From positions 1,698,620 to 1,762,619 of the forward strand of contig NZ_JYKO02000001.1 in NCBI RefSeq assembly GCF_000949385.2: 64,000 nt of DNA, read 5' to 3'. Positions 15,360 through 31,919 of the stretch are shown piece after piece. A model generated the notes under the pieces. That model saw nothing but the letters and a program-made list of their open reading frames with translations, did no database searches and had not been told where the DNA came from. This stretch comes from Pseudomonas sp. LFM046 (GTDB taxonomy: Bacteria; Pseudomonadota; Gammaproteobacteria; Pseudomonadales; Pseudomonadaceae). The position numbers and the translations under genes were made by a program. Positions within the stretch are counted from its first letter, which is position 1; each line of letters begins with the position of its first letter.

Positions 15360-15515
15360 GGTCGTCATGAGAGAGTGTTTCGCATTGAGAGGGGTGTTCG
15401 GCCAGATAACTTGGCCACTTTGATCCCCTATTGGCCGCCGCCGCCACTGCGCAAACACCCCTGATCCGCCACAGAATCCCCTCACCAATAACAAGACCCG
15501 AATGAGGTGCCCTCC

Positions 15516-17638
<2,123 letters not shown>

Positions 17639-17652
17639 TTTCCGAGCACTCA

Positions 17653-17680
17653 AAAAAAGGGCCGCATTGCGGCCCTTTCT
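17653..17680. terminator. Bidirectional terminator
   Basis: A-run, then AAGGGCCGC-ATT-GCGGCCCTT with TTCT after it. The stem is symmetrical with A-tract and T-tract flanks, so it can end both the plus-strand amidohydrolase/binding-protein transcript and the minus-strand LysR transcript. Confidence 0.85.
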
Positions 17681-17706
17681 GCTTCTCGGCTGGACTGATC
17701 GGTGCG

Positions 17707-18627
17707 CTACGAGGCGACCTCGACCTTCTGGGCGAGGCGCTCCCGGCAGAAGTCCACGAACAACTGCGCCGGCTTGGTCAGTTGTCCGCGCTTGAGCCGG
17801 GCCGCCACCAGACCGGAGGTGGCCACGGGTTCGGTGATGTTGACGGTGACCACCTTCTTGCCGTCGTAGGTGCATTCGGAGTGGGGGCGGGTGACCAGCA
17901 GGGAGAAGCCGAAGCCCTGGCCAACCATGCCACGCACCATCTCGATCGATGGCGAGCTGAAGACGATGTTGGGGGTCAGGCCCATGTCGTGGAACAGGCT
18001 GACGAAGTAGGTCCGGCTCGGTTGCACGTCCAGCAGGATCATCGGTTCCAGGCAAAGATCGCGCAGGGACACCTGGGCCTGGTTGGCGAAGCGGTGGTTC
18101 TCCGGCAACAGCGCATAGGGCTTCTGCGGTGGCATCAGCGGCTCGGTCGCGATGGTGCTGTCCAGATCGTGGTCGTAGAGGAAGGCCAGGTCGAAGGTGC
18201 CGGCGGTCAGGCCCTGCACCAGCTCCTGCTGCTCGCCATCGCGGATGCGGATGTCCACCCCAGGATAGAGTTCGCGGAAGCCCGCGATCAGCTGCGGCAG
18301 GTAGAGCGGGGCGACGGTTTCGAAGCAGCCGATGTCGATCTGTCCGGCGACGATGTCGTTGTCAGCCAGGGCGTTCTGCTCGAACTCGCGGGCCACCCGC
18401 AGCAGCTCCTGGGCCTTCTGGTAGAAGCGCGTGCCGCTGGGTGTCAGGGACACGCCCTGGGCGTGGTGGCGGATGAACAGCTGCACGCCGAAGCTTTCTT
18501 CCAGGCCCTTGATGGCCGTGGAAATGGACGGCTGAGCGATGTACAGCTTGCGCGACGCTTCGGCCACGCTGCCGGCCTCCACGGTCGTCACGAAATACTT
18601 GAGTTGTCGCAAGGTATAGGTAGCCAC
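17707..18627 (-). CDS. LysR-family regulator of the amine-catabolism island
   Basis: LysR regulator of 306 residues. The HTH lies at about 4-60 (YTLRQLKYFVTTVEAGSVAE, PSISTAIKGLEESFG); a BenM/CysB-like effector domain follows. Two GTG codons could start it; I chose the second (18627, VATYTLRQ) because an AGAGG ribosome site sits 5 bases upstream and pseudomonad relatives begin MATYTLRQ. It heads the island on the opposite strand. An AT-rich sequence near its start is repeated before the dehydrogenase and the aminotransferase, which makes it the best candidate regulator of the whole island. Confidence 0.9.
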   Translation of the reverse strand: MATYTLRQLKYFVTTVEAGSVAEASRKLYIAQPSISTAIKGLEESFGVQLFIRHHAQGVSLTPSGTRFYQKAQELLRVAREFEQNALADNDIVAGQIDIGCFETVAPLYLPQLIAGFRELYPGVDIRIRDGEQQELVQGLTAGTFDLAFLYDHDLDSTIATEPLMPPQKPYALLPENHRFANQAQVSLRDLCLEPMILLDVQPSRTYFVSLFHDMGLTPNIVFSSPSIEMVRGMVGQGFGFSLLVTRPHSECTYDGKKVVTVNITEPVATSGLVAARLKRGQLTKPAQLFVDFCRERLAQKVEVAS

Positions 18628-18730
18628 GGGCACCTCTGCTGCTCGGCCGCCGGTGCGTGCGGCGGCCCATTCTGCTTGTCGTTGTGGGTTGCACCTTACC
18701 CCAGGCAGCGCCTGTTGAACCGCATGGGCT

Positions 18731-18776
18731 ACCGAGTTTTTTCATATGACTCGAGCATATTTTTCATATTTTTCCT
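18731..18776. promoter_or_regulatory. Shared AT-rich operator-like sequence, copy A
   Basis: ACCGAGTTTTTTCATATG, then CGAGCATATTTTTCATA and TTTTTCC. It shares its pattern (GAGCTTTTTC-TAT, CGAG-ACA-ATTT, ATTTTCC) with copies B (19738) and C (25434). It lies about 105 bp upstream of the LysR start on the other strand, so it could serve autoregulation. Confidence 0.5.
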
Positions 18777-18916
18777 CTGCCGGACGCTGGCGCACCACCT
18801 GTCTCGACGCTGTTCAGGCGGGTGGATTATCGCGTCATGGGGCTGTTCACCGCCGTCAATCTGCTGGGCGTCGATGTCGTCGACCTCCCGCGCCGCCTCG
18901 CCCATCACCTCGACGA

Positions 18917-18934
18917 CCCGGACCGAAGTCCGGG
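18917..18934. repeat. 18-bp hairpin repeat CCCGGACcgaaGTCCGGG
   Basis: Perfect 7-bp stem with a CGAA tetraloop, followed by CTACGGC. The same element with a TGAA loop is at 19691-19708. Both flank the GNAT gene. Confidence 0.6.
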
Positions 18935-19093
18935 CTACGGCTCTGGCATGTATGCGCCGTCGGGTGGACTTCTGCCCACCAACGCGATCCCTCCGCTCAC
19001 ACCGCCCCGGTGCGCTGCCCCGCTCAGCGCTTCAGCTCGGCAGTTCCCGGTGCTACTTTGGCCGGCCAACCCGCAAGGCCGAAGGAGCGAAGG

Positions 19094-19549
19094 ATGGCGA
19101 TCAGGAAGATGGTGCAGGCGGACATCGATGCGGTCAGCACCCTGTGCATGGCGGCGTTCAACGCTTCGGTGGCGCCTACGGTGTCCGCGCAGGGGGTCGA
19201 GACCTTCCGCAAGGTGGCATCTGCAGAGGCCTTCCAGCAGCGCATGCAGGGCGACAACTTGATGCTGGTGTTCGAGGATGCCGCCACGCTCAAGGGCATC
19301 CTCGAGCTCAGGGAAGGGCGTCATCTCGCCATGTTGTTTATCCACCCCCAGCATCAGCGCCAGGGTATCGGACAAGCCCTGGTAGCCGCGATGACCGCAC
19401 ATGCGCGAGTGGCGGCCATCACGGTCAAGGCATCGCTCACCTCGGTGCCGGCGTACCTGCGCTATGGCTTCCAGTGCACGGGCGATGCGGGCGAAGACGC
19501 AGGGCTGAGCTACCAGCCGATGGAGCTGCAAGTCGTCGCGAAGCCGTAG
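19094..19549 (+). CDS. GNAT-family N-acetyltransferase
   Basis: 151 residues. The GNAT motif A is at about 80-96 (LFIHPQHQRQGIGQALVAAM, with the acetyl-CoA pyrophosphate loop QRQGIG at 88-93), and motif B is YLRYGFQCTGDAGE. The start ATG (MAIRKMVQAD) has GGAGCGAAGG just upstream. The substrate is not evident; in this island an amine or polyamine is a reasonable guess. It is flanked on both sides by the 18-bp hairpin repeat and by related AT-rich sequences, so the gene may have arrived between duplicated flanks. Confidence 0.85.
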   Translation: MAIRKMVQADIDAVSTLCMAAFNASVAPTVSAQGVETFRKVASAEAFQQRMQGDNLMLVFEDAATLKGILELREGRHLAMLFIHPQHQRQGIGQALVAAMTAHARVAAITVKASLTSVPAYLRYGFQCTGDAGEDAGLSYQPMELQVVAKP

Positions 19550-19690
19550 GGTGGGCATCAGCCCATCAGCGATGCTTCTGTGCACGCCGGGCTATCGGCG
19601 GACGTCGAACCCTGGTGCGTTGCCTGTTCCTCGGCAATGGCGGCCTACCCCCTGCTGAGGCCTGTCCTGGCACGTCAGATACCTTCGGCC

Positions 19691-19708
19691 CCCGGACTGA
19701 AGTCCGGG
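19691..19708. repeat. 18-bp hairpin repeat CCCGGACtgaaGTCCGGG
   Basis: Second copy of the element at 18917-18934, again followed by CTACGGC, on the far side of the GNAT gene. Confidence 0.6.
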
Positions 19709-19737
19709 CTACGGCGGCGCTTTGCGCCCGCGTTCGT

Positions 19738-19785
19738 TACCGAGCTTTTTCTTATCCACCGAGCACATTTTTAATAATTTTCCTA
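19738..19785. promoter_or_regulatory. Shared AT-rich operator-like sequence, copy B
   Basis: ACCGAGCTTTTTCTTAT, then CGAGCACATTTTTAATAA and TTTTCC. It lies 75-125 bp upstream of the dehydrogenase start, the usual place for a LysR activation site plus core promoter. It is aligned with copies A and C. Confidence 0.55.
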
Positions 19786-19861
19786 AGCCGAGCTCTGGCG
19801 CACCATCTGCCTCGACCCGAATAACAACATGACCGCGCAGACGGTCGAGTGGGAGTGCAGC

Positions 19862-21352
19862 GTGTTCGATCTCGGCTATTGGCAGCAGAAGGCTGCCCGG
19901 CAAGGCTTCATTGACAAGGCTCTGATCGGTGGCCGCCAGGTGGCCGCCGCATCCGGCGCGACCTTTGACTCCATCAGCCCCGGCACCAACCAGTTGCTGG
20001 CCCGCGTGGCCGCCTGCGGCGAGTCGGAAGTGGACCTGGCGGTACGCACCGCGCGCCGTGCCTTCAACGAAGGCCCCTGGGCGCGCATGGCGCCGGTGGA
20101 GCGCAAGAAGGTACTGCTGCGCCTGTCCGAGTTGATGATGCAACACCGCGAAGAGCTGGCCCTGCTGGACTCCCTGAACATGGGCAAGCCGGTGATGGAT
20201 GCCTACAACATCGACGTGCCCGGCGCCGCCCATGTGTTCGCCTGGTACGGCGAGGCCCTGGACAAGCTCTACGACCAGGTGGCGCCTACCGCGCCCAACG
20301 CCCTGGCCACCATCACCCGCGAAGCCCTGGGCGTGATCGCCGCCGTGGTGCCCTGGAACTTCCCCCTCGACATGGCGGCCTGGAAGCTCGCTCCGGCGCT
20401 GGCCGCCGGCAACAGCGTGATCCTGAAGCCCGCCGAGCAGTCGCCGTTCTCCGCCCTGCGCCTGGCCGAACTGGCCCTGGAAGCCGGGCTGCCGGAAGGC
20501 GTGCTGAACGTGGTGCCGGGCCTGGGTGAGGCCGCCGGCAAGGCGCTGGGCCTGCACCCGGACGTGGATTGCCTGGTGTTCACCGGCTCCACCCAGGTGG
20601 GCAAGTACTTCATGGGCTACTCGGCCCAGTCCAACCTCAAGCAGGTCTGGCTGGAGTGCGGCGGCAAGAGCCCGAACCTGGTCTTCGACGACTGCCGCGA
20701 CCTGGACCTCGCCGCCGAGAAGGCTGCCTTCGGCATCTTCTTCAACCAGGGCGAAGTCTGCTCGGCGAACTCGCGTCTGTACGTCCAGCGCTCCATCCGC
20801 GATGAGTTCATCGAGCGCCTGCTGACCAAGGCGCGCAACTGGATGCCCGGCGACCCGCTGGACCCGGCCAGCCGTGCCGGCGCCATCGTCGACGCCGGGC
20901 AGACCGCGCGCATCATGGCCTTCATCGAGCAGGCGCAAGGGCAGGGCGCGAACCTGCTGGCGGGCGGCCGTCGCCTGACCTTCAACGGCTCCAGCAACTT
21001 CGTCGAACCCACCGTGTTCGCCGATGTGCACAGCGACATGGAGCTGGCGCGGGAAGAGGTGTTCGGCCCGGTGCTGGCCATCAGCACTTTCGAGTCCGAG
21101 GACGAGGCCATCCGCCTCGCCAATGACAGCGTCTACGGCCTTGCGGCCTCGGTGTGGAGCGATGACCTGCACCGCGCCCACCGTGTCGCCCGCGCGCTCA
21201 AGGCGGGCACCGTGTCGGTGAACACGGTGGACGCCCTGGACGTCACCGTGCCCTTCGGTGGCGGCAAGCAGTCCGGCTTCGGCCGCGACCTCTCGCTGCA
21301 TTCCTTCGACAAGTACAGCCAGCTGAAGACCACCTGGTTCCAGCTGCGCTGA
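19862..21352 (+). CDS. Gamma-glutamyl-gamma-aminobutyraldehyde-type dehydrogenase (PuuC/KauB-like)
   Basis: NAD(P)-dependent aldehyde dehydrogenase that oxidises aminoaldehydes from polyamine or diamine breakdown. 496 residues from a GTG at 19862 (VFDLGYWQQKAARQGF), chosen because GGGAG lies 6 bases upstream and the length matches PuuC; an ATG at 19829 has no ribosome site. The catalytic cysteine is C300 (NQGEVCSANSR), the general base E265 (LECGGKSPN), the NAD loop FTGSTQVGK, and the oxyanion Asn sits in PWNFP. It is first in the run that continues with the binding proteins. Paired with the class III aminotransferase at 25537, it gives the standard amine to aldehyde to acid route. Confidence 0.9.
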   Translation: MFDLGYWQQKAARQGFIDKALIGGRQVAAASGATFDSISPGTNQLLARVAACGESEVDLAVRTARRAFNEGPWARMAPVERKKVLLRLSELMMQHREELALLDSLNMGKPVMDAYNIDVPGAAHVFAWYGEALDKLYDQVAPTAPNALATITREALGVIAAVVPWNFPLDMAAWKLAPALAAGNSVILKPAEQSPFSALRLAELALEAGLPEGVLNVVPGLGEAAGKALGLHPDVDCLVFTGSTQVGKYFMGYSAQSNLKQVWLECGGKSPNLVFDDCRDLDLAAEKAAFGIFFNQGEVCSANSRLYVQRSIRDEFIERLLTKARNWMPGDPLDPASRAGAIVDAGQTARIMAFIEQAQGQGANLLAGGRRLTFNGSSNFVEPTVFADVHSDMELAREEVFGPVLAISTFESEDEAIRLANDSVYGLAASVWSDDLHRAHRVARALKAGTVSVNTVDALDVTVPFGGGKQSGFGRDLSLHSFDKYSQLKTTWFQLR

Positions 21353-21508
21353 GGTCGCGATGACGACCGGGCCGCACGCTCTTTCAGCGGGCGGCTCCAC
21401 CTAACAAGAAACGACTCCTGTCGCGTGGTGCCACGCGCGGGCTTACGGCTACCTGGCCGCAACTGCCTCAGCAACTGATCACAACTAACAAGTAGTGAGG
21501 GAGTTTCC

Positions 21509-22564
21509 ATGTCCAAGTCCTTGCGTCCGTGCATTTCCGCAATCCTCGGCCTGTCGGTACTGGTTGGCACCAGTGGCCCGGCGCTGGCCGAATCGTCGAA
21601 TCTCACCGTGATTTCCTTCGGTGGCGCCACCAAGGCCGCGCAGGATGCGGCCTATTTCAAACCCTTCGAACAGAGTGGCGCCGGCAAGGTGGTGGCCGGC
21701 GAGTACAACGGCGAGCTGTCCAAGGTGAAGGCCATGGTCGATATCGGCCAGGTCACCTGGGACGTGGTGGAAGTGGAAAGCCCCGAGCTGCTGCGTGGCT
21801 GCGAGGAAGGGCTGTTCGAACGCATCGACCCGGCCCTGCTCGGTGAATCGGCCAGCTACATGCCGGGCACCGTCAGCGAGTGCGGTGTGGCCAGCTACGT
21901 CTGGTCCATGGTGCTGGCCTACAACGCCGACAAACTGGCCAGCGCGCCCAGCTCCTGGGCGGACTTCTGGGACACCCAGCGCTTCCCCGGCAAGCGCGGC
22001 CTGCGCAAGGGCGCCAAGTACACCCTGGAAGCGGCGCTGCTGGCCGACGGGGTGAAGCGCGAGGACCTCTACAAGGTGCTGGAAACCGATGAGGGCGTGG
22101 CGCGCGCCTTCCGCAAGCTGGACCAGATCAAGCCCAACATCCAGTGGTGGGAAGCCGGCGCCCAGCCGCCGCAATGGCTGGTGGCCGGTGATGTGGTGAT
22201 GTCCGCCGCCTACAACGGCCGCATCGCCGCCGCGCAGAAGGAAGGCTCGAAACTGGCCATCGTCTGGAACGGCAACCTCTACGACCCGGATCACTGGGCC
22301 ATCGTCCGCGGCAGCCCGAACAAGGCCCTGGCCGAGCGCTTCATCGCCTTCGCCAGCCAGGCGGATACGCAGAAAACCTTCTCCAGCCAGATCCCCTACG
22401 GTCCGGTGCACAAGGACGCCCTGGCCGCCTTGCCCGCCGCCACCCAGGCACAACTGCCCACCGCGCCGGCCAACCTGGCCGAGGCGCAACTGGTGAGCGC
22501 CGAGTTCTGGGTGAACCACGGCGAGGAGCTGGAGGAGCGCTTCAACGCCTGGGCGGCACGCTGA
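21509..22564 (+). CDS. Periplasmic binding protein, PotD/spermidine-type (orphan)
   Basis: 351 residues. Signal peptide about 1-27 (ending GPALA); the mature part begins NLTVISFGGATKAAQDAAYFK, the start typical of the polyamine/PotD-like SBP_bac_8 family, and has WDVVEVESPELLRGCEEGLFERI-like core segments. GTGAGGGAG is the ribosome site. No permease or ATPase of the Pot type is encoded nearby; the following ABC set belongs to a different (sulfonate/taurine) class with its own binding protein. It therefore either uses a distant importer or supplies a sensing role. Ligand unknown, amine-like by context. Confidence 0.87.
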   Translation: MSKSLRPCISAILGLSVLVGTSGPALAESSNLTVISFGGATKAAQDAAYFKPFEQSGAGKVVAGEYNGELSKVKAMVDIGQVTWDVVEVESPELLRGCEEGLFERIDPALLGESASYMPGTVSECGVASYVWSMVLAYNADKLASAPSSWADFWDTQRFPGKRGLRKGAKYTLEAALLADGVKREDLYKVLETDEGVARAFRKLDQIKPNIQWWEAGAQPPQWLVAGDVVMSAAYNGRIAAAQKEGSKLAIVWNGNLYDPDHWAIVRGSPNKALAERFIAFASQADTQKTFSSQIPYGPVHKDALAALPAATQAQLPTAPANLAEAQLVSAEFWVNHGEELEERFNAWAAR

Positions 22565-22713
22565 AATTTGCGCTCCACGGGCGTCGGCGACTACGGCGAC
22601 CGCCTGGAGCGCGACTGGCGAGGCCGACGCCCGTCGCGCCTCGCACGACCAGACTCGCCGGCTCCTGCGGCCAGGCGGGCCCATAACAAGTACAAGATCG
22701 GGAGACATGCCCC

Positions 22714-23700
22714 ATGTTCAAACCCTTGCTCAATCGCATCGCCAAACCCCTGTGCTGCACTGCCCTGGCGGCCAGCATCGCCACGGGTGCGCAGGCCGGC
22801 ACCCTGTCCATCGGCCATACCACCTGGGTCGGCTACGGCACCCTGTACCTGGCCCGTGACCTCGGCTTCTTCAAGGAGCAGGGCCTGGACGTCGAGCTGA
22901 CCACCATGGAAGAAGCCTCGATGTACATGGCCGCCCAGGCGTCCGGCCAACTGTCCGGGTCGGCCTCGACCATCGACGAAGTGCTCAAGTACCGCTCCAA
23001 GGATTTCTGCTTCAAGGCCGTAGCGGCGCTGGATGACAGCCACGGCGGCGACGGCGTGCTGGTCGGCGACAAGGTCGCCAGCCTGAAGGACCTCAAGGGC
23101 CAGCAGGTGGCGGTCAACGAAGGTTCGGTGTCGCAGTTCTGGCTGTCCTACCTGCTCAAGCACGCCGGCATGACCATGGCCGACCTGGATGTGCAGAACA
23201 TGACGGCCGACGACGCCGCCACTGCCTTTATCGCCGGTCGCGTTCCCGCCGCCGTGACCTGGGAACCGCACCTCTCGATGGTGCGCCAGAAGGGCCAGGG
23301 CAAGGTGCTGATCGACAGCACCGAGACCCCCGGCGTCATCGTCGACGTGGTGGCGCTGTCCTGCGACGTGATCGAGAAGCAACCGGACGACGTGAAGGCG
23401 CTGGTCAAGGGCCTGTACAAGGCGGTGCAGTTCACCCGCGACAACCCCGACAAGGCCCACGAGATCATGGCCAAGGGCGTTGGCGGCTACCTCTCCGACC
23501 CGGCCGAGCTGGCCAATGCCGCCAAGGGCGTGCGCTTCTATGACCAGGCCATGAGCGAGGCGCTGCTGGGCACGCCGGGCAAGCCGGGGCAGATCAAGGG
23601 CGTGATCCGCCTGGCCAACGAAACCTGGAGCAGCCTGCAAGGCAAGCGCTTCGACGTCAGCTACGACGACCTGGTCGACACCCGGTTCGTCAGCCCGTAA
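22714..23700 (+). CDS. ABC substrate-binding protein, SsuA/TauA/NMT1-like
   Basis: 328 residues with a signal peptide at about 1-28 (ending GAQA). The mature protein begins LSIGHTTWVGYGTLYLARDL, followed by a FKEQGLDVEL segment and a VNEGSVSQFW ligand-loop, as in nitrate/sulfonate/taurine/thiamine-precursor binding proteins. First gene of a tight three-gene importer (12-bp gap to the permease). The class covers aliphatic sulfonates, taurine and pyrimidine precursors; the linked catabolic genes argue for an N-containing compound, but this cannot be settled by eye. Confidence 0.9.
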   Translation: MFKPLLNRIAKPLCCTALAASIATGAQAGTLSIGHTTWVGYGTLYLARDLGFFKEQGLDVELTTMEEASMYMAAQASGQLSGSASTIDEVLKYRSKDFCFKAVAALDDSHGGDGVLVGDKVASLKDLKGQQVAVNEGSVSQFWLSYLLKHAGMTMADLDVQNMTADDAATAFIAGRVPAAVTWEPHLSMVRQKGQGKVLIDSTETPGVIVDVVALSCDVIEKQPDDVKALVKGLYKAVQFTRDNPDKAHEIMAKGVGGYLSDPAELANAAKGVRFYDQAMSEALLGTPGKPGQIKGVIRLANETWSSLQGKRFDVSYDDLVDTRFVSP

Positions 23701-23712
23701 GCGGAGATCATC

Positions 23713-24516
23713 ATGGCTTCCAAACAGAACTGGCTCAGCCGCTGCCTGACCCCCAAGGTCGACCTGCCGGCGCAAATGATCCTGACCGCCAGCACCCTCG
23801 GTTGGCTCCTGGTGCTCGGCCTGTGGGCCGTGCTGTCCTACGGCGGCCTGGTGCCGGCGATGTTCCTGCCCACGCCGGGCGCGGTGCTGGAGGCGGCCGG
23901 TCGCCTGGCTGCCGACGGCACCCTGGGCAAGCATGTGCTGGCCAGCGTCGAGGTGGTGCTGATCGGCTTCATCGTGTCGTCCCTGGTGGCGGTGCCGCTG
24001 GGGCTGCTGATGGGCAGCTTCCGCATCGTCCAGGCCTTCCTCGAGCCCCTGGTCAACTTCATCCGCTACCTGCCGGTGACCTCCTTCGTGCCGCTGTTCA
24101 TCCTGTGGATCGGTATCGGCCTGGAGCAGCGGGTGACGGTGATCATCTTCGGTGTGTTCTTCCAGCAGCTGGTGATGATCGCGGACGTCTCCAAGGGTGT
24201 GTCCAAGGACCTGATCAACGCCTCCTACACCCTCGGTTCGAACCGTCGCGACGTGATCTTCCACGTGCTCGGCCCGGCGTCCTTGCCCGGTGTGCTGGAT
24301 ACCCTGCGGGTGACCATGGGCTGGGCCTGGACCTACCTGGTGGTGGCTGAGCTGGTCGCGGCCAGCAGCGGCCTGGGCTACATCAGCCTGAAGGCTATGC
24401 GCGGCTTCCAGGTGGACGTGATCTTCCTCGCGATCGCCATCATCGGCCTGCTCGGCCTGGTGACCGACCAACTGTTCCGACTGTTCCGACTGAAGGTGGC
24501 CTCATGGGCGCAGTAA
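23713..24516 (+). CDS. ABC transporter permease, SsuC/TauC-like
   Basis: 267 residues, six hydrophobic segments and the cytoplasmic EAA-type loop (DLINASYTLGSNRRDVIFHV). Ribosome site GGAG before ATG. It overlaps the ATPase gene by 13 bp, so the two are translationally coupled. Inner-membrane channel of the importer encoded with 22714 and 24504. Confidence 0.92.
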   Translation: MASKQNWLSRCLTPKVDLPAQMILTASTLGWLLVLGLWAVLSYGGLVPAMFLPTPGAVLEAAGRLAADGTLGKHVLASVEVVLIGFIVSSLVAVPLGLLMGSFRIVQAFLEPLVNFIRYLPVTSFVPLFILWIGIGLEQRVTVIIFGVFFQQLVMIADVSKGVSKDLINASYTLGSNRRDVIFHVLGPASLPGVLDTLRVTMGWAWTYLVVAELVAASSGLGYISLKAMRGFQVDVIFLAIAIIGLLGLVTDQLFRLFRLKVASWAQ

Positions 24517-25337
24517 CCGCAATGCATACACACCCGGCCGCCGGTCAGGCGGCGAGCAGCAAGCAGCCCCGCATGCGCGTGGAGCAGGTCAGCCTGCGCT
24601 ACAACACCCCGGACGGACAGACCTTCACCGCCCTGGAGAACGTCTCGCTCAGCGTGCCGGACCAGCAGTTCGCGGTCCTGGTGGGGCCCTCCGGCTGCGG
24701 CAAGTCGAGCCTGCTCTACCTCACCGCGGGGCTGTCCCAGCCCACGTCGGGCAACATCTACGTCGGCGGCCAGCGGGTGGAGGGCCCCGGCCCCGATCGC
24801 GGCATGGTGTTCCAGAGCTACACGCTGTTCCCCTGGCTCAGCGTGCGGCAGAACATCGAGTTCGGCTTGAAGCGCAAGGGCATGCCCGTCGCCGAGCGCG
24901 ATGAAATCGTCAACTTCTACCTCAATGAGGTGGGCCTGACGCAGTTCGCCGACCGTTTTCCCAAGCAACTCTCCGGCGGCATGATGCAGCGCGTTGCGAT
25001 TGCCCGGGCACTGGCGAACGATCCGCAGATCCTGCTGATGGACGAACCCTTCGGCGCCCTCGACAGCCAGACCCGCATGCAGATGCAGCAGTTGTTGCTG
25101 CGGGTGTGGGAGCACAGCAAGAAGACCGTGGTGTTCGTGACCCACGACATCGACGAAGCCATCCTGCTGGGCGACCGCGTCTATGTGATGGGCGCGCGAC
25201 CGGGACGGATCAAGCGCGAGATGGATGTGCCCATGCCGCGCCCGCGGGACATGGATATGGTGATGGACCGCCAGTTCATCGAAATGAAGCGGGAAATCCT
25301 CGGCCTGCTGCACAACGAGATGGACGAGCCCCACTGA
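24504..25337 (+). CDS. ABC transporter ATPase, SsuB/TauB-like
   Basis: 277 residues. Walker A GPSGCGKSS (61-69), Q-loop FQSYTLFPW, signature [15 protein letters not shown], Walker B ILLMDEPFGALDS and the switch His in FVTHDIDEA. The N-terminal 20 residues are extra and poorly conserved-looking; translation could instead begin at the ATG at 24522. It is the energy module of the importer, last gene of its run before the aminotransferase. Confidence 0.93.
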   Translation: MGAVTAMHTHPAAGQAASSKQPRMRVEQVSLRYNTPDGQTFTALENVSLSVPDQQFAVLVGPSGCGKSSLLYLTAGLSQPTSGNIYVGGQRVEGPGPDRGMVFQSYTLFPWLSVRQNIEFGLKRKGMPVAERDEIVNFYLNEVGLTQFADRFPKQLSGGMMQRVAIARALANDPQILLMDEPFGALDSQTRMQMQQLLLRVWEHSKKTVVFVTHDIDEAILLGDRVYVMGARPGRIKREMDVPMPRPRDMDMVMDRQFIEMKREILGLLHNEMDEPH

Positions 25338-25433
25338 GGCGGCGCCGGGCGGCGTGCAATTCGTCGCCCTCGACCCTGTCCGCCAGCCTGGCACCCGGCC
25401 AGGCATCGGGCGCCAGCGCGCTCGGCGGGCAGG

Positions 25434-25480
25434 GCAGCTTTTTCGTATAGCTCGAAGACAAATTTAATAATTTCCCTACC
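25434..25480. promoter_or_regulatory. Shared AT-rich operator-like sequence, copy C
   Basis: GGCAGCTTTTTCGTATAG, then CTCGAAGACAAATTTAATAA and TTTCCC. It lies 57-103 bp upstream of the aminotransferase start and matches copies A and B in the AGCTTTTTC-TAT and ATTT-AATAATTT-CC parts. It implies a second promoter of the same regulon inside the island. Confidence 0.55.
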
Positions 25481-25536
25481 CATCGGCTTCGGCCAGCATC
25501 AATGCAGCTGAAAACCGGGACGAGGAGAACCCACAG

Positions 25537-26919
25537 ATGAACGCTCAATTCCAGGCTCAACGCGAAACCCGTGACTACCAGGCAGCGGATGCGGCCCACC
25601 ACATCCATGCCTTCCTCGACCAGAAGGCGCTGAACGCCGAAGGCCCGCGGGTGATCGTCGGCGGCGAGCGTCTCCACCTCTGGGACAACGACGGCAATCG
25701 CTACCTCGACGGCATGTCCGGCCTGTGGTGCACCAACCTCGGCTACGGCCGCAAGGACCTCACCGCTGCCGCCACCCGCCAGCTGGAGCAGCTGCCGTAC
25801 TACAACATGTTCTTCCACACCACCCACCCGGCGGTGGTGGAACTGTCCGAGCTGCTGTTCAGCCTGCTGCCGGGCCACTACAGCCACGCCATCTACACCA
25901 ACTCCGGCTCGGAAGCGAACGAGGTGCTGATCCGCACCGTGCGCCGCTACTGGCAGATCCTCGGCAAGCCCGAGAAGAAAATCATGATCGGCCGCTGGAA
26001 CGGCTACCACGGCTCCACCCTGGGCGCCACGGCGCTCGGCGGGATGAAGTTCATGCACGAAATGGGCGGCATGCTGCCGGACATTGCCCACATCGACGAA
26101 CCCTACTACTTCGCCAACGGCGGCGACCTGACCCCCGAGGAATTCGGCCTGCGCGCCGCGCGCCAGCTGGAGGAGAAAATCCTTGAGCTGGGCGCCGACA
26201 AGGTCGCCGCGTTCGTCGCCGAACCCTTCCAGGGCGCTGGCGGCATGATCTTCCCGCCGGAGACCTACTGGCCGGAGATCCAGCGCATCTGCCGCAAGTA
26301 CGACGTGCTGCTGTGCGCCGACGAAGTGATCGGCGGCTTCGGCCGTACCGGCGAGTGGTTCGCCCACGAGCACTTCGGCTTCCAGCCGGACACCCTGTCC
26401 ATCGCCAAGGGCCTGACCTCCGGCTACATCCCCATGGGTGGCCTGATCCTCAGCAAGCGCATGGCCGAGGTCCTGGTGGAGCAGGGCGGCGTGTTCGCCC
26501 ACGGCCTGACTTACTCCGGCCACCCGGTGGCGGCGGCGGTGGCCATCGCCAACCTCAAGGCGCTGCGTGACGAAGGCGTGGTGACCCAGGTGAAGACCGA
26601 CACCGGCCCCTACCTGCAGCAGTGCCTGCGCGAAGTGTTCGGCAACCACCCGCTGGTGGGCGACATCCAGGGCGCCGGCTTCGTCGCCGCGCTGCAGCTG
26701 GCCGAGGACAAGGCCACCCGCAAGCGCTTCACCAACGAGAACGACATCGCCTGGCGCTGCCGCACCATCGGCTTCGAGGAAGGCGTGATCATCCGCTCGA
26801 CCCTGGGCCGCATGATCATGGCGCCGGCCCTGGTGGCCACCCGTGCCGAGATCGACGAGCTGGTGAGCAAGACCAAGCGCGCGCTGGACCGCACCGCCCA
26901 GGAACTGGGACGCCTCTGA
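25537..26919 (+). CDS. Class III aminotransferase (putrescine/diamine- or beta-alanine-pyruvate type)
   Basis: PLP-dependent omega-aminotransferase that moves an amino group from a primary amine or diamine to pyruvate. 460 residues. The PLP lysine is K291 (SIAKGLTSGYIPMGG), D262 (CADEVIGGFGRTG) anchors the pyridine nitrogen, and NSGSEANE (122-129) is the phosphate loop. The closest pseudomonad relatives by pattern are SpuC-like polyamine transaminases. GAGGAG ribosome site. It has its own AT-rich operator-like sequence upstream, separate from the transporter genes. The product aldehyde would be the substrate of the dehydrogenase at 19862. Confidence 0.92.
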   Translation: MNAQFQAQRETRDYQAADAAHHIHAFLDQKALNAEGPRVIVGGERLHLWDNDGNRYLDGMSGLWCTNLGYGRKDLTAAATRQLEQLPYYNMFFHTTHPAVVELSELLFSLLPGHYSHAIYTNSGSEANEVLIRTVRRYWQILGKPEKKIMIGRWNGYHGSTLGATALGGMKFMHEMGGMLPDIAHIDEPYYFANGGDLTPEEFGLRAARQLEEKILELGADKVAAFVAEPFQGAGGMIFPPETYWPEIQRICRKYDVLLCADEVIGGFGRTGEWFAHEHFGFQPDTLSIAKGLTSGYIPMGGLILSKRMAEVLVEQGGVFAHGLTYSGHPVAAAVAIANLKALRDEGVVTQVKTDTGPYLQQCLREVFGNHPLVGDIQGAGFVAALQLAEDKATRKRFTNENDIAWRCRTIGFEEGVIIRSTLGRMIMAPALVATRAEIDELVSKTKRALDRTAQELGRL

Positions 26920-27065
26920 GTCCCGGCTGGCCGCCCTGACCCCGGCCAGGGGCAGGGCGGCCACCAAGCAACCTTGCGACCTTCCGCGCGCCGGCAATGG
27001 CCGGCGCGATGGAATCCCTTTGCCTGGCGCCAGACTGCCGGGTCGTTGTCACTGCGAGACCTGAC

Positions 27066-28469
27066 ATGCACAACAAAGACAATTCGCAGGCTCCCACGCT
27101 GGAACTCAGCACCATCCAGCCGATCAGCGCCGCGGAGCGCCATGGGCGACCGCGGGACCTGTTCACCATCTGGTTCGGCTGCAACCTGATCCTGCTGACC
27201 GTGATTACCGGCGCCCTGGCGGTGACCGTGTTCAAGTTGCCGTTCTTCTCCGCCCTGGCGGCCCTGGTGCTGGGCAACCTGGTGGGCGGCGTCTTCATGG
27301 CCCTGCACTCTGCCCAGGGGCCGCAATTGGGCGTGCCGCAGATGGTGCAGACCCGTGGCCAGTTCGGCTCCTTCGGTTCCTTGCTGGTGGTGGCCCTGGT
27401 GGTGGTGATGTACCTCGGGTTCTTTGCCTCCAATCTGGTGCTGGGCGGCCAGTCCCTGCACGGCCGCTTCCCGATCATCGATACCAACGTCGGCATTCTG
27501 CTGGTGGGCGCCCTCAGCCTGGTGGCGGCCTCGGTGGGCTATCGCCTGATCCACGCCTACACCCGCGTCATGACCTACCTCTCGGGTGCGGTGTTGCTGC
27601 TGGCCTTCGTCTGGCTGGTGTTCATCCACGGCCTGCCGGCGGACTTCCTCCAGCGCAACGAGACCACCCTGGCCGGTTTCCTCGGCACGCTCTCCGTGGC
27701 GGCACTCTGGCAACTGGCGTATGCGCCCTACGTGTCCGACTACTCCCGCTACCTGCCGGAAGCCACCGGCTCGCGCAGCGCCTTCTGGTCCAGTTACTGG
27801 GGTTGCTGCCTGGGCTCGCTGCTGCCCATGTTGCTGGGGGTGATGGTGGCCCTCAGCATCGACGGCGATGACGTGGTCGGCGGCCTGATCGAGGCCACCG
27901 GCGGCCTCAGTGCGCTGCTGGTTGCGGTCCTTTCCATCGGTATCGCCGCCACCAACGCCATGAACCTGTACTGCGGCGCCCTGTCCACCATCACCGTGGG
28001 GCAGACCCTGGTGCCGTCCTGGTCGGCCGGCGCCGGCGCACGCATCCTGACCTCGCTGATCCTCTTCGGTGGATCGCTGGCCCTGGCGCTGCTGGGCCAG
28101 GACGACTTCATGGTGAACTACACCAACTTCATCCTCCTGCTGCTCTACGTGCTGGTGCCCTGGAGCGCCATCAACCTGGTGGACTATTACCTGGTGGCCC
28201 ATGGTCGTTACGACCTGCCGTCCTTCTTCCTGCGCGACGGTGGCATCTACGGCCGCTGCAATTGGACGGCGGTGAACTGCTACGTGCTGGGCATCCTGGT
28301 GCAGATTCCCTTCATGTCCACGGCCCTCTACACCGGCCCGGTGGCCGAAGCCATGGGGGGGGCCGACATCTCCTGGATCGTCGGGCTGGGCGTGATTTCG
28401 CCGGTCTATTACTTCGCCTGTCGCATTGGCGGACGCACCCATTCGCTGGTCCAGGGAGGTGCCCGATGA
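27066..28469 (+). CDS. NCS1-family permease (cytosine/purine-allantoin type)
   Basis: 467 residues with about twelve membrane helices. The N-terminal cytoplasmic tail is followed by RPRDLFTIWFGCNLILLT, the NCS1 signature of helix 1, and APYVSDYSRYLP in the helix 6 region. NCS1 carriers take up nucleobases, hydantoins, allantoin or related cyclic and acylated amines. The start ATG at 27066 (MHNKDNSQ) was chosen over in-frame codons farther upstream because family proteins begin shortly before the RPRDLF segment. The stop overlaps the deacetylase start (ATGA), so the transporter and enzyme are coupled and probably share a substrate. Confidence 0.88.
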   Translation: MHNKDNSQAPTLELSTIQPISAAERHGRPRDLFTIWFGCNLILLTVITGALAVTVFKLPFFSALAALVLGNLVGGVFMALHSAQGPQLGVPQMVQTRGQFGSFGSLLVVALVVVMYLGFFASNLVLGGQSLHGRFPIIDTNVGILLVGALSLVAASVGYRLIHAYTRVMTYLSGAVLLLAFVWLVFIHGLPADFLQRNETTLAGFLGTLSVAALWQLAYAPYVSDYSRYLPEATGSRSAFWSSYWGCCLGSLLPMLLGVMVALSIDGDDVVGGLIEATGGLSALLVAVLSIGIAATNAMNLYCGALSTITVGQTLVPSWSAGAGARILTSLILFGGSLALALLGQDDFMVNYTNFILLLLYVLVPWSAINLVDYYLVAHGRYDLPSFFLRDGGIYGRCNWTAVNCYVLGILVQIPFMSTALYTGPVAEAMGGADISWIVGLGVISPVYYFACRIGGRTHSLVQGGAR

Positions 28470-29578
28470 GCCGCCGTACCGGATTCTTCTTCGATGAGCG
28501 CTGCTTCTGGCATGCCGCCGGCCTGCACAGCCTGGTGTTGCCGGTGGGGGGCTGGCTGCAGCCGCCCAGTGGCTCCGGCCATGCCGAGTCGCCGGAAACC
28601 AAGCGTCGGCTGAAGAGCCTGATGGATGTGTCGGGGCTCAGCGATCGGCTGGTGCTGTCCAGCGCACCCATGGCCTGCGAGGAGGACCTGCTGCGGGTCC
28701 ATCCGGCCCAGTACCTGGCGCGCTTCAAGGCCATGAGCGATGTCGGCCATGGCGAACTGGGCGAAGAAGCCGCGGTGGGGCCGGGCACCTACGAGATCGC
28801 CCGGCAGTCGGCGGGGCTGGCCATCGCGGCGGTGGATGCCGTGCTGCGCGGCGAACTGGACAACGCCTACGCCCTGTCGCGGCCGCCGGGGCACCACTGC
28901 CTGGCGGATCGCGGCATGGGCTTCTGCTACCTGGCGAACATCGCCGTCGCCGTGGAAACCGCCAAGGCCCGTCACGGTGTTGGCCGCGTAGCGGTGCTGG
29001 ACTGGGACGTGCACCACGGCAACGGCACCCAGTCGATCTTCTACGAGCGCGACGACGTGCTGACGTTGTCGATCCACCAGGACAACTGCTTCCCCGTCGG
29101 TGAGGGCGCGGTGGAGGAGCGGGGCAGCGGCAAGGGGTTCGGCTACAACCTCAACGTCCCGCTCTTCCCCGGCAGCGGCGACGACGCCTATCGCTACGCC
29201 ATGGAGCGGGTGATCGTGCCGGCCCTGGAACGCTTCGAGCCGGAACTGATCGTGGTCGCCTGTGGCTTCGACGCCAACGGCGTGGACCCGCTGGCGAGGA
29301 TGCTGCTGCACAGCGAGTCCTTCCGCGCCATGACGGCCATCCTGCGCGAGGCCGCCGATCGCCTCTGCGGCGGGCGCCTGGTGCTGGTGCACGAGGGCGG
29401 CTACGCGGAAGCCTATGTGCCGTTCTGCGGCCATGCGGTGATCGAGGAGCTGTCCGGCATCCATACCGAAGTCACGGACCCCTTCCTGCCCATGCTCCAA
29501 GGTCAGCAACCGAACGAAGAATTCCGCGCCTTCCAGCGCCGGGCGATCGACCGGATCGCATCGACGCTACAGGGCTGA
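28466..29578 (+). CDS. Histone-deacetylase-family amidohydrolase (class II/HDAH-like)
   Basis: 370 residues, zinc-dependent deacetylase fold. Catalytic His pair H143/H144 (RPPGHHCL), zinc ligands D181 and H183 (LDWDVHHGNG) and D269 (CGFDANGVDPLARM). The FCGHAVIEELSGI tail is typical of the bacterial HDAH/AphB branch rather than the AphA branch at 15516. Translationally coupled to the NCS1 permease by ATGA. It probably deacetylates or deacylates an imported amine, releasing the free amine for the transaminase. From memory a permease/deacetylase pair of this kind also exists in P. aeruginosa (PA0321-PA0322). Confidence 0.9.
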   Translation: MSRRTGFFFDERCFWHAAGLHSLVLPVGGWLQPPSGSGHAESPETKRRLKSLMDVSGLSDRLVLSSAPMACEEDLLRVHPAQYLARFKAMSDVGHGELGEEAAVGPGTYEIARQSAGLAIAAVDAVLRGELDNAYALSRPPGHHCLADRGMGFCYLANIAVAVETAKARHGVGRVAVLDWDVHHGNGTQSIFYERDDVLTLSIHQDNCFPVGEGAVEERGSGKGFGYNLNVPLFPGSGDDAYRYAMERVIVPALERFEPELIVVACGFDANGVDPLARMLLHSESFRAMTAILREAADRLCGGRLVLVHEGGYAEAYVPFCGHAVIEELSGIHTEVTDPFLPMLQGQQPNEEFRAFQRRAIDRIASTLQG

Positions 29579-29687
29579 CAGACCATTGCGGTGCCCGCCA
29601 CCGCACAGGAGTCGGGGCTTATTCAGCCCCGCAACCGGGAACCGGCCCTCACCACCGGAACCCGGACCACAGCTGCAAGGCAGTTTT

Positions 29688-29727
29688 ACGGCGCACGGGG
29701 TTGCTGACCCGCGCGCCGTTCTTTTTT
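29688..29727 (+). terminator. Intrinsic terminator of the amine island
   Basis: ACGGCGC-ACGGGG pairs with CCCGCG-CGCCGT around a TTGCTGA loop and is followed by TTCTTTTTT. It ends the transcript from the deacetylase gene. Confidence 0.8.
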
Positions 29728-29738
29728 GGGGGACTCAC

Positions 29739-29760
29739 AGGGTGGGCTGAAGCCCACCCT
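29739..29760. repeat. 22-bp palindrome at the 3' end of the MFS gene
   Basis: AGGGTGGGCT-GA-AGCCCACCCT, a 10-bp perfect stem that overlaps the stop codon of the minus-strand MFS gene by two bases. It can act as the 3' end hairpin of that transcript. Confidence 0.55.
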
Positions 29761-30940
29761 AGGCGCAGGGCCGGGGGGTGAGGGCAGCGTCCTGCGGCAT
29801 GGACTCAACGTTCCCCCTGGCCAACATCAATCCACCCGCCAGCAACAAGCCGGCCCCCGCCACATACAACGCAGGTTGCAGGTCGCCGCCGAGGTGGCTG
29901 CTCACGGCTGCCAGCAGCGGGCCGGCCAGTTGGCCAAGGGCGAAGGCGGCGGTGAGCAGGCCGACGTTGCGGGTGTGGCCGTGGGGATCGAGTTCACGGG
30001 CGTGGTGCATGACCAGTTGCATGCCGGCGAGGAAAGGCCCGCCGCTGAGGATCACGCCCAACATGAGCCCGGCCATCCCCGGCAGGGTGCAGGCGAGGGT
30101 GCCCAACGCTTGCAGCCAGAGGGCGGCCACCAGCCAGCGGCGGGCGCTGCCGGGACGTTGGCGGCGCAGGCTCACCAGCACCACGCCGACGGCCGCCGCC
30201 AGACCGAAGGCCGGCCAGAACAGGTCCGCCTGCCATTGCCCGTGGAAGCGTGCAGCAGCCATCTGCGAAAGGAAGGTGGCCGGGATGATGTAGCCCAGGC
30301 CCACCAGTGCATAGGCGCCGAGCAGGGTGTACAGCGCCCTGGGCCGGGCGCGGGCCGGTGCATCTGTCTGGGGTGTGGCGGCGGAGGGGGAGGGCAGCAG
30401 CGGCTGGGTGACCAGCGTCAGCACCAGCGCCAAGGCGCCGAAGGCCAGCCAGATAGCGGCCGAGCCCTGGCCTTGCAAGTTGAGTCCCAGAGCCAGCGTG
30501 CCCGTCAGTATCACGCCGAACGCCGGTCCAGCGAACACCAGGCTGCCCAGACGCGGGCGGCCTGCTTCAGCGGCGATGCGCTGGCTGATTCCAGTCACCA
30601 TCACCAGCACCCAGGCGCTGGCGACCCCCAGCCCGAAGCGCAGCAAGGCATGGGGCCAGAAGCCTTCCGCCGGAACGGACGCCAGGGTGAGCAGGACGCA
30701 CGCCCAGAGGCCGGCCACCAGGCGCAGGCGGGCCTGGCCCGGAGAGCGGACGTTGAGGGCGTCGAGGGCGCCGACCAGATAGCCCAGGTAGTTGGCGGCG
30801 GCCACCAGTCCGGCAGCCGTCAGACTCACCTGGCCCTCGGCGATCAGGTGCGGAAGCTGCGGGGTGAGGGCGAAGCGGCCGACGCCCATGGCAACCAGCA
30901 GGGCGAGGAAGCAGGCGAGCAGTCGGATCAGTGGGAGCAT
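29759..30940 (-). CDS. MFS transporter, YbfB/YjiJ family
   Basis: 393 residues with twelve predicted membrane helices. The N-terminus MLPLIRLLACFLALLVAMGVGRFALTPQLP is the hallmark of the YbfB-type MFS (MFS_4) group, whose substrates are mostly unknown. The start ATG at 30940 precedes this directly. Divergent from a LysR gene across 109 bp that contain a near-perfect inverted repeat, so expression is probably controlled by that regulator. The last codon region overlaps a palindrome. Confidence 0.88.
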   Translation of the reverse strand: MLPLIRLLACFLALLVAMGVGRFALTPQLPHLIAEGQVSLTAAGLVAAANYLGYLVGALDALNVRSPGQARLRLVAGLWACVLLTLASVPAEGFWPHALLRFGLGVASAWVLVMVTGISQRIAAEAGRPRLGSLVFAGPAFGVILTGTLALGLNLQGQGSAAIWLAFGALALVLTLVTQPLLPSPSAATPQTDAPARARPRALYTLLGAYALVGLGYIIPATFLSQMAAARFHGQWQADLFWPAFGLAAAVGVVLVSLRRQRPGSARRWLVAALWLQALGTLACTLPGMAGLMLGVILSGGPFLAGMQLVMHHARELDPHGHTRNVGLLTAAFALGQLAGPLLAAVSSHLGGDLQPALYVAGAGLLLAGGLMLARGNVESMPQDAALTPRPCA

Positions 30941-31004
30941 GGTGGTTCTCCGGTGCTGGTCATCGGAAATCCATGCTAGGGGCTGGATGTGTTCATTAAA
31001 AACG

Positions 31005-31036
31005 AATAAAACAGAATACATTCGTTCTGATTTATT
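31005..31036. promoter_or_regulatory. Inverted-repeat operator between MFS and LysR genes
   Basis: AATAAAACAGAA, 8 bp, then TTCTGATTTATT: 12-base arms with one mismatch. It lies 14 bp upstream of the LysR start and 65 bp upstream of the MFS start, in an AT-rich patch. Fits a LysR-type autoregulatory and activation site. Confidence 0.6.
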
Positions 31037-31049
31037 GAAAGGTGTCGCC

Positions 31050-31919
31050 ATGGAACTCAGCCAGCTCCGCATCTTCCAGGCCGTGGCCGAAGAGGGCTCC
31101 ATCACCCGCGCGGCCTCGCGCATGCACCGGGTGCCCTCGAACCTGTCCACACGGCTCAAGCAACTGGAGGAAAACCTCGGAGTGGAGCTGTTCCTGCGGG
31201 AGCGCCAGCGCCTCACCCTGTCCCCGGCGGGCAAGGTGCTGCTGGGCTACGCCGAGCGGATGTTCGCCCTGCAGGCGGAAGCCGAGGCGGCCCTGCGCGG
31301 TGGTGAACCGGCAGGGGATTTCGTCATCGGGTCGATGTTCAGCACCGCCGCCATCCACCTGCCACCCATGCTGGTGGGCTACCACCGCTCCTGGCCGGCG
31401 GTGAATCTGCAGGTGCAGACGGCGCCCAGCGGCGAATTGCTGGACGGCCTGCTCAACGGCCGTCTGGACGCTGCCCTGGTGGATGGCCCGGTGGAGTTCG
31501 CCGAGCTGGACGGCCTGCCGATGTTCGAGGAAGAGATGGTGCTGATCACCGAGGCCGCCCACGGGCCGGTGCGGTCAGCCCAGGACGTCGCTGGCCTGGA
31601 GGTCTACGCCTTCCGCCAGAGCTGCTCCTACCGCCGCCGCCTGGAAGGCTGGTTCGTCGCATCGCGGGTGCCCATGTCGCCGCCCATGGAGATCGAGTCC
31701 TACCACAGCATGCTGGCCTGCGTGATCGCGGGCGGCGGCATTGCCCTGGTGCCGCGTTCCATGCTGGAAAGCCTGCCGGGACGCGATGAGGTGCGGGTCC
31801 ATCAACTGGACGCACCCTTCAATCGCGCCACCACCTGGCTGATGTGGCGCAAGGGCATGCTGGGCGCCAACCTGCGGGCCTGGATCGACCTGCAACAGGG
31901 CCGGCTTGCGGTGGCTTGA
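31050..31919 (+). CDS. LysR-family regulator of the divergent MFS transporter
   Basis: 289 residues. The HTH is MELSQLRIFQAVAEEGSITR, continuing with AASRMHRVPSNLSTRLKQLEENLGVELF; the VPSNLSTR recognition-helix form is typical of the PtxR/YtlI-like branch. An effector domain with GSMFSTAAIHLPPML follows. The start is ATG 31050 with GAAAGG upstream. It presumably controls itself and the MFS gene through the inverted repeat at 31005-31036. Effector unknown. Confidence 0.9.
   Translation: MELSQLRIFQAVAEEGSITRAASRMHRVPSNLSTRLKQLEENLGVELFLRERQRLTLSPAGKVLLGYAERMFALQAEAEAALRGGEPAGDFVIGSMFSTAAIHLPPMLVGYHRSWPAVNLQVQTAPSGELLDGLLNGRLDAALVDGPVEFAELDGLPMFEEEMVLITEAAHGPVRSAQDVAGLEVYAFRQSCSYRRRLEGWFVASRVPMSPPMEIESYHSMLACVIAGGGIALVPRSMLESLPGRDEVRVHQLDAPFNRATTWLMWRKGMLGANLRAWIDLQQGRLAVA

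Follow-up and report, generated by a model that had tools for sequence, protein, structure and literature searches.

What compound passes through a run of bacterial genes that joins uptake systems to a deacetylase, a transaminase and an aldehyde dehydrogenase? The question is raised by a block of about 12.2 kb (positions 17637..29820) in a stretch of 64,000 nucleotides from Pseudomonas sp. LFM046 (contig NZ_JYKO02000001.1, positions 1,698,620 to 1,762,619), here called the window. A preliminary description of the block proposed that an acylated amine is imported, deacylated, transaminated and oxidized to an acid, by a pathway that might be undescribed. That order of steps fits the evidence, though most probably with histamine as the amine and not a polyamine or beta-alanine. 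The core of the block (a LysR regulator, the dehydrogenase, the transaminase and a PotD-like protein) is, from its sequence, almost certainly the known hin1 histamine locus of Pseudomonas. What looks undescribed is confined to an accessory set, made up of an NCS1-family carrier, an HDAH-type deacetylase, an ABC importer and a GNAT acetyltransferase. The named genes are present as intact open reading frames, as the open reading frame listing and family matches bear out. Below, L-numbers denote locus stretches and G-numbers genomes, with G000 being the LFM046 genome (5.97 Mb). The genus sample comprises 18 genomes and the family sample 298 Pseudomonadaceae genomes.

Identity of the Block Core

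The first clue is the regulator. The window LysR (17707..18633, minus strand) matches PDB entries 6m5f and 3fzv, both of which we take to be HinK of P. aeruginosa. Over 302 aa the LysR of locus L169 and 6m5f do not differ (100% identity), and the L169 protein is 87% identical to that of the window. (The AlphaFold model of the window LysR was poor, with a predicted local distance difference test score, pLDDT, of 43.8, and was not used.) In L169 the regulator is followed by a dehydrogenase, an amino-acid-type permease, an aminotransferase and a PotD-like protein. According to the available portions of PMC8231116, the corresponding PAO1 genes are PA0218 (hinK), PA0219 (hinD), PA0220 (hinA), PA0221 (hinC) and PA0222 (a solute-binding protein), histamine raises expression of all of them, and imidazole-4-acetate is the signal to which HinK responds.

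The window has the same core in one run. The aldehyde dehydrogenase (19829..21352, plus strand, as are all features below) is 84% identical to the HinD-position protein of L169, the class-III aminotransferase (25537..26919, PF00202) is 87% identical to HinC, and the PotD-like binding protein (21509..22564) is 74% identical to the protein at the PA0222 position. These assignments replace two earlier labels. The dehydrogenase had been called PuuC-type, yet it scores 629 bits against a PuuC cut-off of 850 and is a HinD orthologue. The likeness of the binding protein to PotD is real, but its 33 bits are far below the PotD cut-off of 582, and it is the PA0222-position protein of hin1.

The remainder of the pathway is also in the genome. 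In PAO1 the hinF, hinL, hinH and hinG genes are PA5393-PA5390, and the HinCD and HinFLHG reactions, like HinK sensing, are known for PAO1 or P. putida U (both from the text seen of PMC8231116). HinF is an FAD-monooxygenase, HinL an enamine deaminase and HinG and HinH amidases, as far as the consulted part of PMC6467879 goes. In LFM046 a hinFLHG set (L145) lies about 120 kb from the block, and its products are 84, 93, 76, and 71% identical, respectively, to their L045 counterparts. For three hin2 proteins the Pfam assignments are flavin-type oxidoreductase, RidA type and M20, and HinH of L158 is assigned to DUF1028. In G008, G009, and G017 the hin2 genes adjoin hinK and hinD. Across the genus sample a HinK-type LysR occurs in 17 of 18 genomes and hinF likewise in 17, G013 having neither.

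One element is missing. Of the other hin1 loci in the genus, 16 were examined and every one carries hinA (one is cut by the edge of its stretch), whereas the window block has none, and the nearest HinA-like protein in the LFM046 genome is 33% identical. Because this permease is absent the block is a variant and not a standard hin1 locus. It agrees with PAO1 (PA0218-PA0222) and P. putida U in its regulator, enzymes, PA0222-position protein, genomic hinFLHG genes and shared motif (below), but differs from them by lacking hinA, by having the four accessory elements, and by occupying a new site.

A Shared Operator-Like Motif

Are the accessory genes under the same control as the core? At hinD and hinF there is a conserved motif to which HinK binds (PMC8231116, in the portions available). 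A 24-base pattern, GYTTTTTCNTANNNNNCGANNAYA, was taken by eye from the hinD and hinF promoters. The LFM046 genome has four exact matches, located before the GNAT gene (18736..18759), before hinD (19744..19767), before the unit of transaminase, NCS1 carrier and deacetylase (25437..25460) and before hinF, so that hinD and hinF share the motif as expected of a hin1 system. The site about 100 bp upstream of hinC was discovered with the pattern and was not part of its construction. The second site resembles the motifs of G008, G009, and G017. At up to two mismatches the window contains three matches, against 0.02 expected.

The pattern has 45 exact matches in the 18 genomes of the genus, against none for a reversed-pattern control, and all 45 lie at hin genes: 16 are no more than 250 bp from hinF, 13 no more than 250 bp from hinK, and another 16 up to 12 kb from hinK. 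The way the pattern was built accounts neither for the hinC sites nor for the lack of matches elsewhere. The motif is presumably the HinK operator. Palindromes of the T-N11-A type were also considered as HinK sites and rejected, being scattered, with none common to the hinD promoters.

The NCS1 gene (26997..28469) starts 77 bp after hinC and overlaps the deacetylase gene (28466..29578) by the ATGA at positions 28466-28469, as the preliminary description had noticed. This spacing and overlap make it most likely that hinC, NCS1 and deacetylase form one transcription unit. The same description had named different regulators for the importer and the enzymes as something that would refute its reading. 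The sequence gives no sign of this, since importer, carrier and deacetylase all belong to units headed by the one motif.

The Lost hinA and the NCS1 Carrier

The place of the missing permease is marked by a scar (22565..22713), where the hinA leader is retained and is joined directly to the start of the ABC importer binder. Has another carrier taken over? The NCS1 protein belongs to its family by PF02133 (183.7 bits, gathering threshold 23.5) but falls short of the narrower NCBIfam TIGR00800 ncs1 cut-off (108 vs. 353.1 bits). A fold search with its model (pLDDT 74.4) placed Mhp1 (hydantoin) and CodB (cytosine) at the top. It shares PF02133 and the fold with them, with template modelling (TM) scores of 0.72 and 0.70 by query length. 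However, identity to them is just 17-18%, and the window carrier stands in a context of imidazole-acetate catabolism. There was no sequence match to it in the PDB. Its substrate may be N-acetylhistamine, histamine or both. Among the papers listed from an open-access library, no title or abstract dealt with an NCS1 histamine carrier, although older biochemistry may exist.

At E ≤ 1e-150 the carrier is found in 25 of the 298 family genomes, five of which are of the genus, and the other four of these five retain hinA. Context was surveyed in 80 named loci of the group, with flanks of up to 10 kb, some of them short. A hinD-like dehydrogenase is present in 60, at least two of hinF, hinL, hinH, and hinG in 36, a GMC oxidoreductase in 35, a hinC-like aminotransferase in 32, HDAH in 15, a nitrilase-type hydrolase in 14 and hinA in two.

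Some of these loci suggest other points of entry. Loci L057-L060, L068, L070, L103, L105-L107, and L111-L113 (Enterobacterales, Acetobacter and others) combine NCS1 and a GMC oxidoreductase with hinF, hinL and hinH homologues, with no hinC-like aminotransferase at the threshold used. Entry there is perhaps from an alcohol such as imidazole-ethanol (histaminol). In P. nitroreducens-type hin runs (L037-L043, L046, L056) a carbon-nitrogen hydrolase of the nitrilase family lies between the LysR gene and the dehydrogenase gene, where entry is perhaps from imidazoleacetamide or a nitrile. The G003 match to NCS1 (C1:1887567-1889021) has one internal TAA.

A Deacetylase Group Linked to hinK

The deacetylase (PF00850, 290 bits) has the catalytic His-His, Asp-His-Asp and Tyr of cluster 1b, and is about as close, at roughly 600 bits, to 5li3 as to 9glb. 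It shares all catalytic residues with the deacylases of this cluster (KpHdaH 9glb, HDAH 5g0x/5li3, DmhA, and PrpH). It differs from them in belonging to a separate group that keeps company with hin genes. In the family sample, all 26 loci with homologues of at least 77% identity have hinK within 25 kb, as opposed to 0 of 22 for homologues of 67-72% (six genomes have no hinK at threshold, and in six hinK is on another contig, leaving the distance undefined) and 0 of five for those of 47-52%. Fourteen matches at 38-42% were left out of the count. In two of the 26 (G128, G200) the deacetylase is beside hinC with no NCS1 in the stretch examined. The 67-72% group includes a protein of G130, the genome of L169, which we take to be PA3774.

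Residues separate the groups as well. Eight catalytic positions are unchanged in all 27 hin-group and 22 comparison-group rows. Elsewhere, position 95 is H in 27 of 27 hin-group rows vs. G in 22 of 22 comparison rows, position 150 is G in 26 of 27 vs. A in all 22, position 343 is M in 27 of 27 vs. F in 20 and L in two, and position 346 is G in 25 of 27 vs. L in 18 of 22. H95, G150, M343, and G346 of the window enzyme occupy tunnel-rim positions that set it apart from the characterized deacylases. In the portions of PMC11532494 available, three features shape specificity in cluster 1b, namely the L1 loop, residues around 99-102 and the C-terminal helix around 343-347; small amides are the substrates of two members and KpHdaH deacetylates peptides; and the RPP and XGGY motifs are given as marks of robust deacetylases. 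The window enzyme retains RPP and EGGY. The word histamine is absent from the text of that paper. From its sequence and surroundings, the chance that N-acetylhistamine is the substrate seems about even. Among the matches listed, no open-access title or abstract concerned bacterial deacetylation of acetylhistamine, although older biochemistry may exist.

Deacetylases of another type also adjoin hin genes. In L072 (8719-21411, Paraburkholderia tropica) an AphA-type gene (62%) is beside hin-type genes for NCS1, aminotransferase, DUF1028, GMC, RidA and M20 proteins. In L204 (6049-18581, G525) an operon of aminotransferase, AphA (56%) and PotF-like binder genes stands back to back with hinF-hinL-hinH-hinD-LysR homologues. 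Both cases were counted in favor of N-acetylhistamine. The idea that HDAC-family genes were recruited beside hinF across the phylum found no support, with one case against about 0.3-0.4 expected by chance (a hand estimate).

A Possible Route for N-Acetylhistamine

The block is probably best explained as a variant hin1 locus in which uptake and deacetylation of N-acetylhistamine feed HinC, HinD, and HinFLHG. HinK, sensing imidazole-4-acetate, would activate three units, namely GNAT; hinD, the PotD-like protein and the ABC importer; and hinC, NCS1 and HDAH. The NCS1 carrier, standing in for the lost HinA permease and perhaps aided by the ABC importer, would bring in N-acetylhistamine, histamine or both. 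HDAH would then cleave the acetyl group of N-acetylhistamine, yielding histamine and acetate. Transamination by HinC would convert histamine to imidazole acetaldehyde, and HinD would oxidize this to imidazole-4-acetate, the product that activates HinK. Finally HinFLHG, under the same motif, would take imidazole-4-acetate to aspartate.

A bolder version is more tentative, and we put it somewhat below an even chance. It holds that there is a dedicated N-acetylhistamine branch, with an NCS1 carrier for this compound and an N-acetylhistamine deacetylase of the HDAC superfamily, both controlled by HinK. Members of the NCS1 group would then be carriers of imidazole-ethyl compounds (histamine, acetylhistamine, histaminol), widespread in Proteobacteria and Actinobacteria and able to replace HinA, and in some strains GNAT would close a cycle of acetylation and deacetylation. 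If true, this would assign a natural substrate to a group of bacterial histone-deacetylase-like enzymes about whose roles in the cell little is known, and would explain the use of acetylated histamine by some bacteria. It also makes a testable claim on the substrate of the NCS1 group, which no source consulted names, and an apparent polyamine island turns out to be a histamine locus.

Several observations do not fit the N-acetylhistamine route easily. The hin-type deacetylase is absent from 12 of the 17 genus genomes with hin1, the P. aeruginosa-type loci L169, L172, and L174 have no HDAH, many NCS1 loci have no deacetylase, and in a phylum sample an HDAC-family gene was within 10 kb of hinF in one of 31 genomes (counted by eye). 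The linkage of 26 loci in 26 is inflated by kinship among the genomes. In the tree a branch of moderate support (94/70 for 27 rows including L166, 97/75 without it) sets off the hin group, and the 67-72% comparison group lacks support as a clade (47/36); here L166 (76.9%) was counted with the hin group, and L053, which lies at a contig end and has 240 aligned columns, was left out. The closest characterized deacetylases act on acetyl-lysine peptides (PMC11532494, in the portions available). As for the motif, its matches at hinD and hinF arise partly by construction because the pattern was built from those promoters. G004, which has hin genes, has no exact match, 17 of 53 Pseudomonadaceae hin stretches (some from one genome) are without it as opposed to 36 with it, and it is found in none of 58 NCS1 loci outside the Pseudomonadaceae.

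What else might the deacetylase do? It could, with or without GNAT, be a protein lysine deacetylase that tunes HinC and HinD or an acetyl-CoA synthetase, in the manner of the acuA-acuC pair, and has no part in substrate entry. The presence of GNAT in the block, and of another GNAT after the hin-linked deacetylase in L166, would suit this role, as would the peptide activity of KpHdaH (PMC11532494, from the text seen), an enzyme about as close as those of PA3774 type. However, GNAT and deacetylase differ in their distribution. Among the loci compared, this type of GNAT was seen in the window, in L161 and in L162 and nowhere else, and G008 and G009 are without a hin-type deacetylase. The rim residues of the hin group are unlike those of the peptide-deacetylase-like group, and two cluster 1b enzymes act on small amides (same source and extent). 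On balance a protein substrate seems unlikely. The dimethoate and propanil hydrolases of the same cluster raise another idea, that HDAH releases an imidazole compound from some other small amide (such as a longer-chain N-acylhistamine or imidazoleacetamide) and that NCS1 carries this compound or histaminol. The many NCS1 loci with a GMC oxidoreductase and no aminotransferase, and the 14 of 80 with a nitrilase-type hydrolase, point the same way. Nevertheless, the foot-pocket RPP motif, linked to deacetylases in the accessible part of PMC11532494, is retained, and we consider this alternative distinctly improbable.

A polyamine (spu/puu-like) or acetylpolyamine island is the least credible and would now be very surprising. 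The PuuC-like, SpuC-like and PotD-like similarities of the block proteins invite it, as do the AphA-PotF genes and PtrR-type regulator on either side. Yet these flanks are outside the insert and joined to each other in relatives (below), and the PuuC and PotD scores (629 and 33 bits) are below the cut-offs of 850 and 582. The block follows hin in regulator identity, gene order and motif, and on these grounds and the family scores the polyamine and beta-alanine readings were both rejected.

The ABC Importer and GNAT

The ABC importer (22714..25337) is of NMT1 type and consists of an NMT1/SsuA-like binder (22714-23700), a permease (23713-24516) and an ATPase (24504-25337), all recognized as open reading frames with family matches. 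It is also present in hin loci of other genomes. The earlier label of an Ssu/Tau-type importer falls short of the family cut-offs, the binder scoring 136.7 bits against an SsuA cut-off of 163.5 and 53 against a TauA cut-off of 304.25.

The GNAT protein (19094..19549; Pfam Acetyltransf_10, 109 bits) has 81% homologues between hinG and hinD in L161 and L162, in the same place relative to hinD. In L166 a different GNAT directly follows the hin-linked deacetylase. An 89-nt direct repeat, with copies 78% alike, flanks the window gene and suggested an unrelated insertion. This was dropped because of the homologues in L161 and L162 and because motif 2 is similar to the motifs that these genomes carry.

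The Inserted Block and Its Neighbors

How did the block come to be here? Four relatives (L206-L209) match the window up to 17636, and 146-161 nt further on they match its right flank, from window position 29821-29825 in L207, L208, and L209 but from 30936 in L206, where most of the MFS gene is also gone. Since left and right flanks are joined in these relatives, about 12.2 kb has been inserted at this site, between aphA-potF and the MFS/PtrR side. The block is a true insertion and not a chance run of genes, and its gene set recurs in other genomes. The hin loci L152, L153, and L149 of the genus align with the window, with gaps, from 17707 or 17725 to about 29727-29736. From the empty sites and these match limits, the gene set named in the preliminary description coincides with the insert. 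No 10-mer is common to the two insert edges in direct or inverted orientation. The gap in L207-L209 contains an inverted repeat, which looks like a repetitive extragenic palindromic (REP) element.

Left of the insert (15507-17638) are genes for an AphA-type acetylpolyamine amidohydrolase (closest solved structure 9gkz), one of four HDAC-family genes in the LFM046 genome, and then a PotF-like binder. AphA-PotF was considered as a member of the island and rejected, being joined to the MFS/PtrR side in relatives, with all three window motif matches inside the block. AphA copies (90-98% identity in 17 other genus genomes) were not seen in the hin stretches of 16 of these. Right of the insert (29759-31919) an MFS_4/YbfB-type transporter gene is divergent from a LysR gene whose product passes the cut-off for PtrR, the putrescine utilization regulator (449 vs. 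400 bits). Further to the left, positions 11806-13542 encode isocitrate dehydrogenase kinase/phosphatase (NF002804, 821 bits, cut-off 488).

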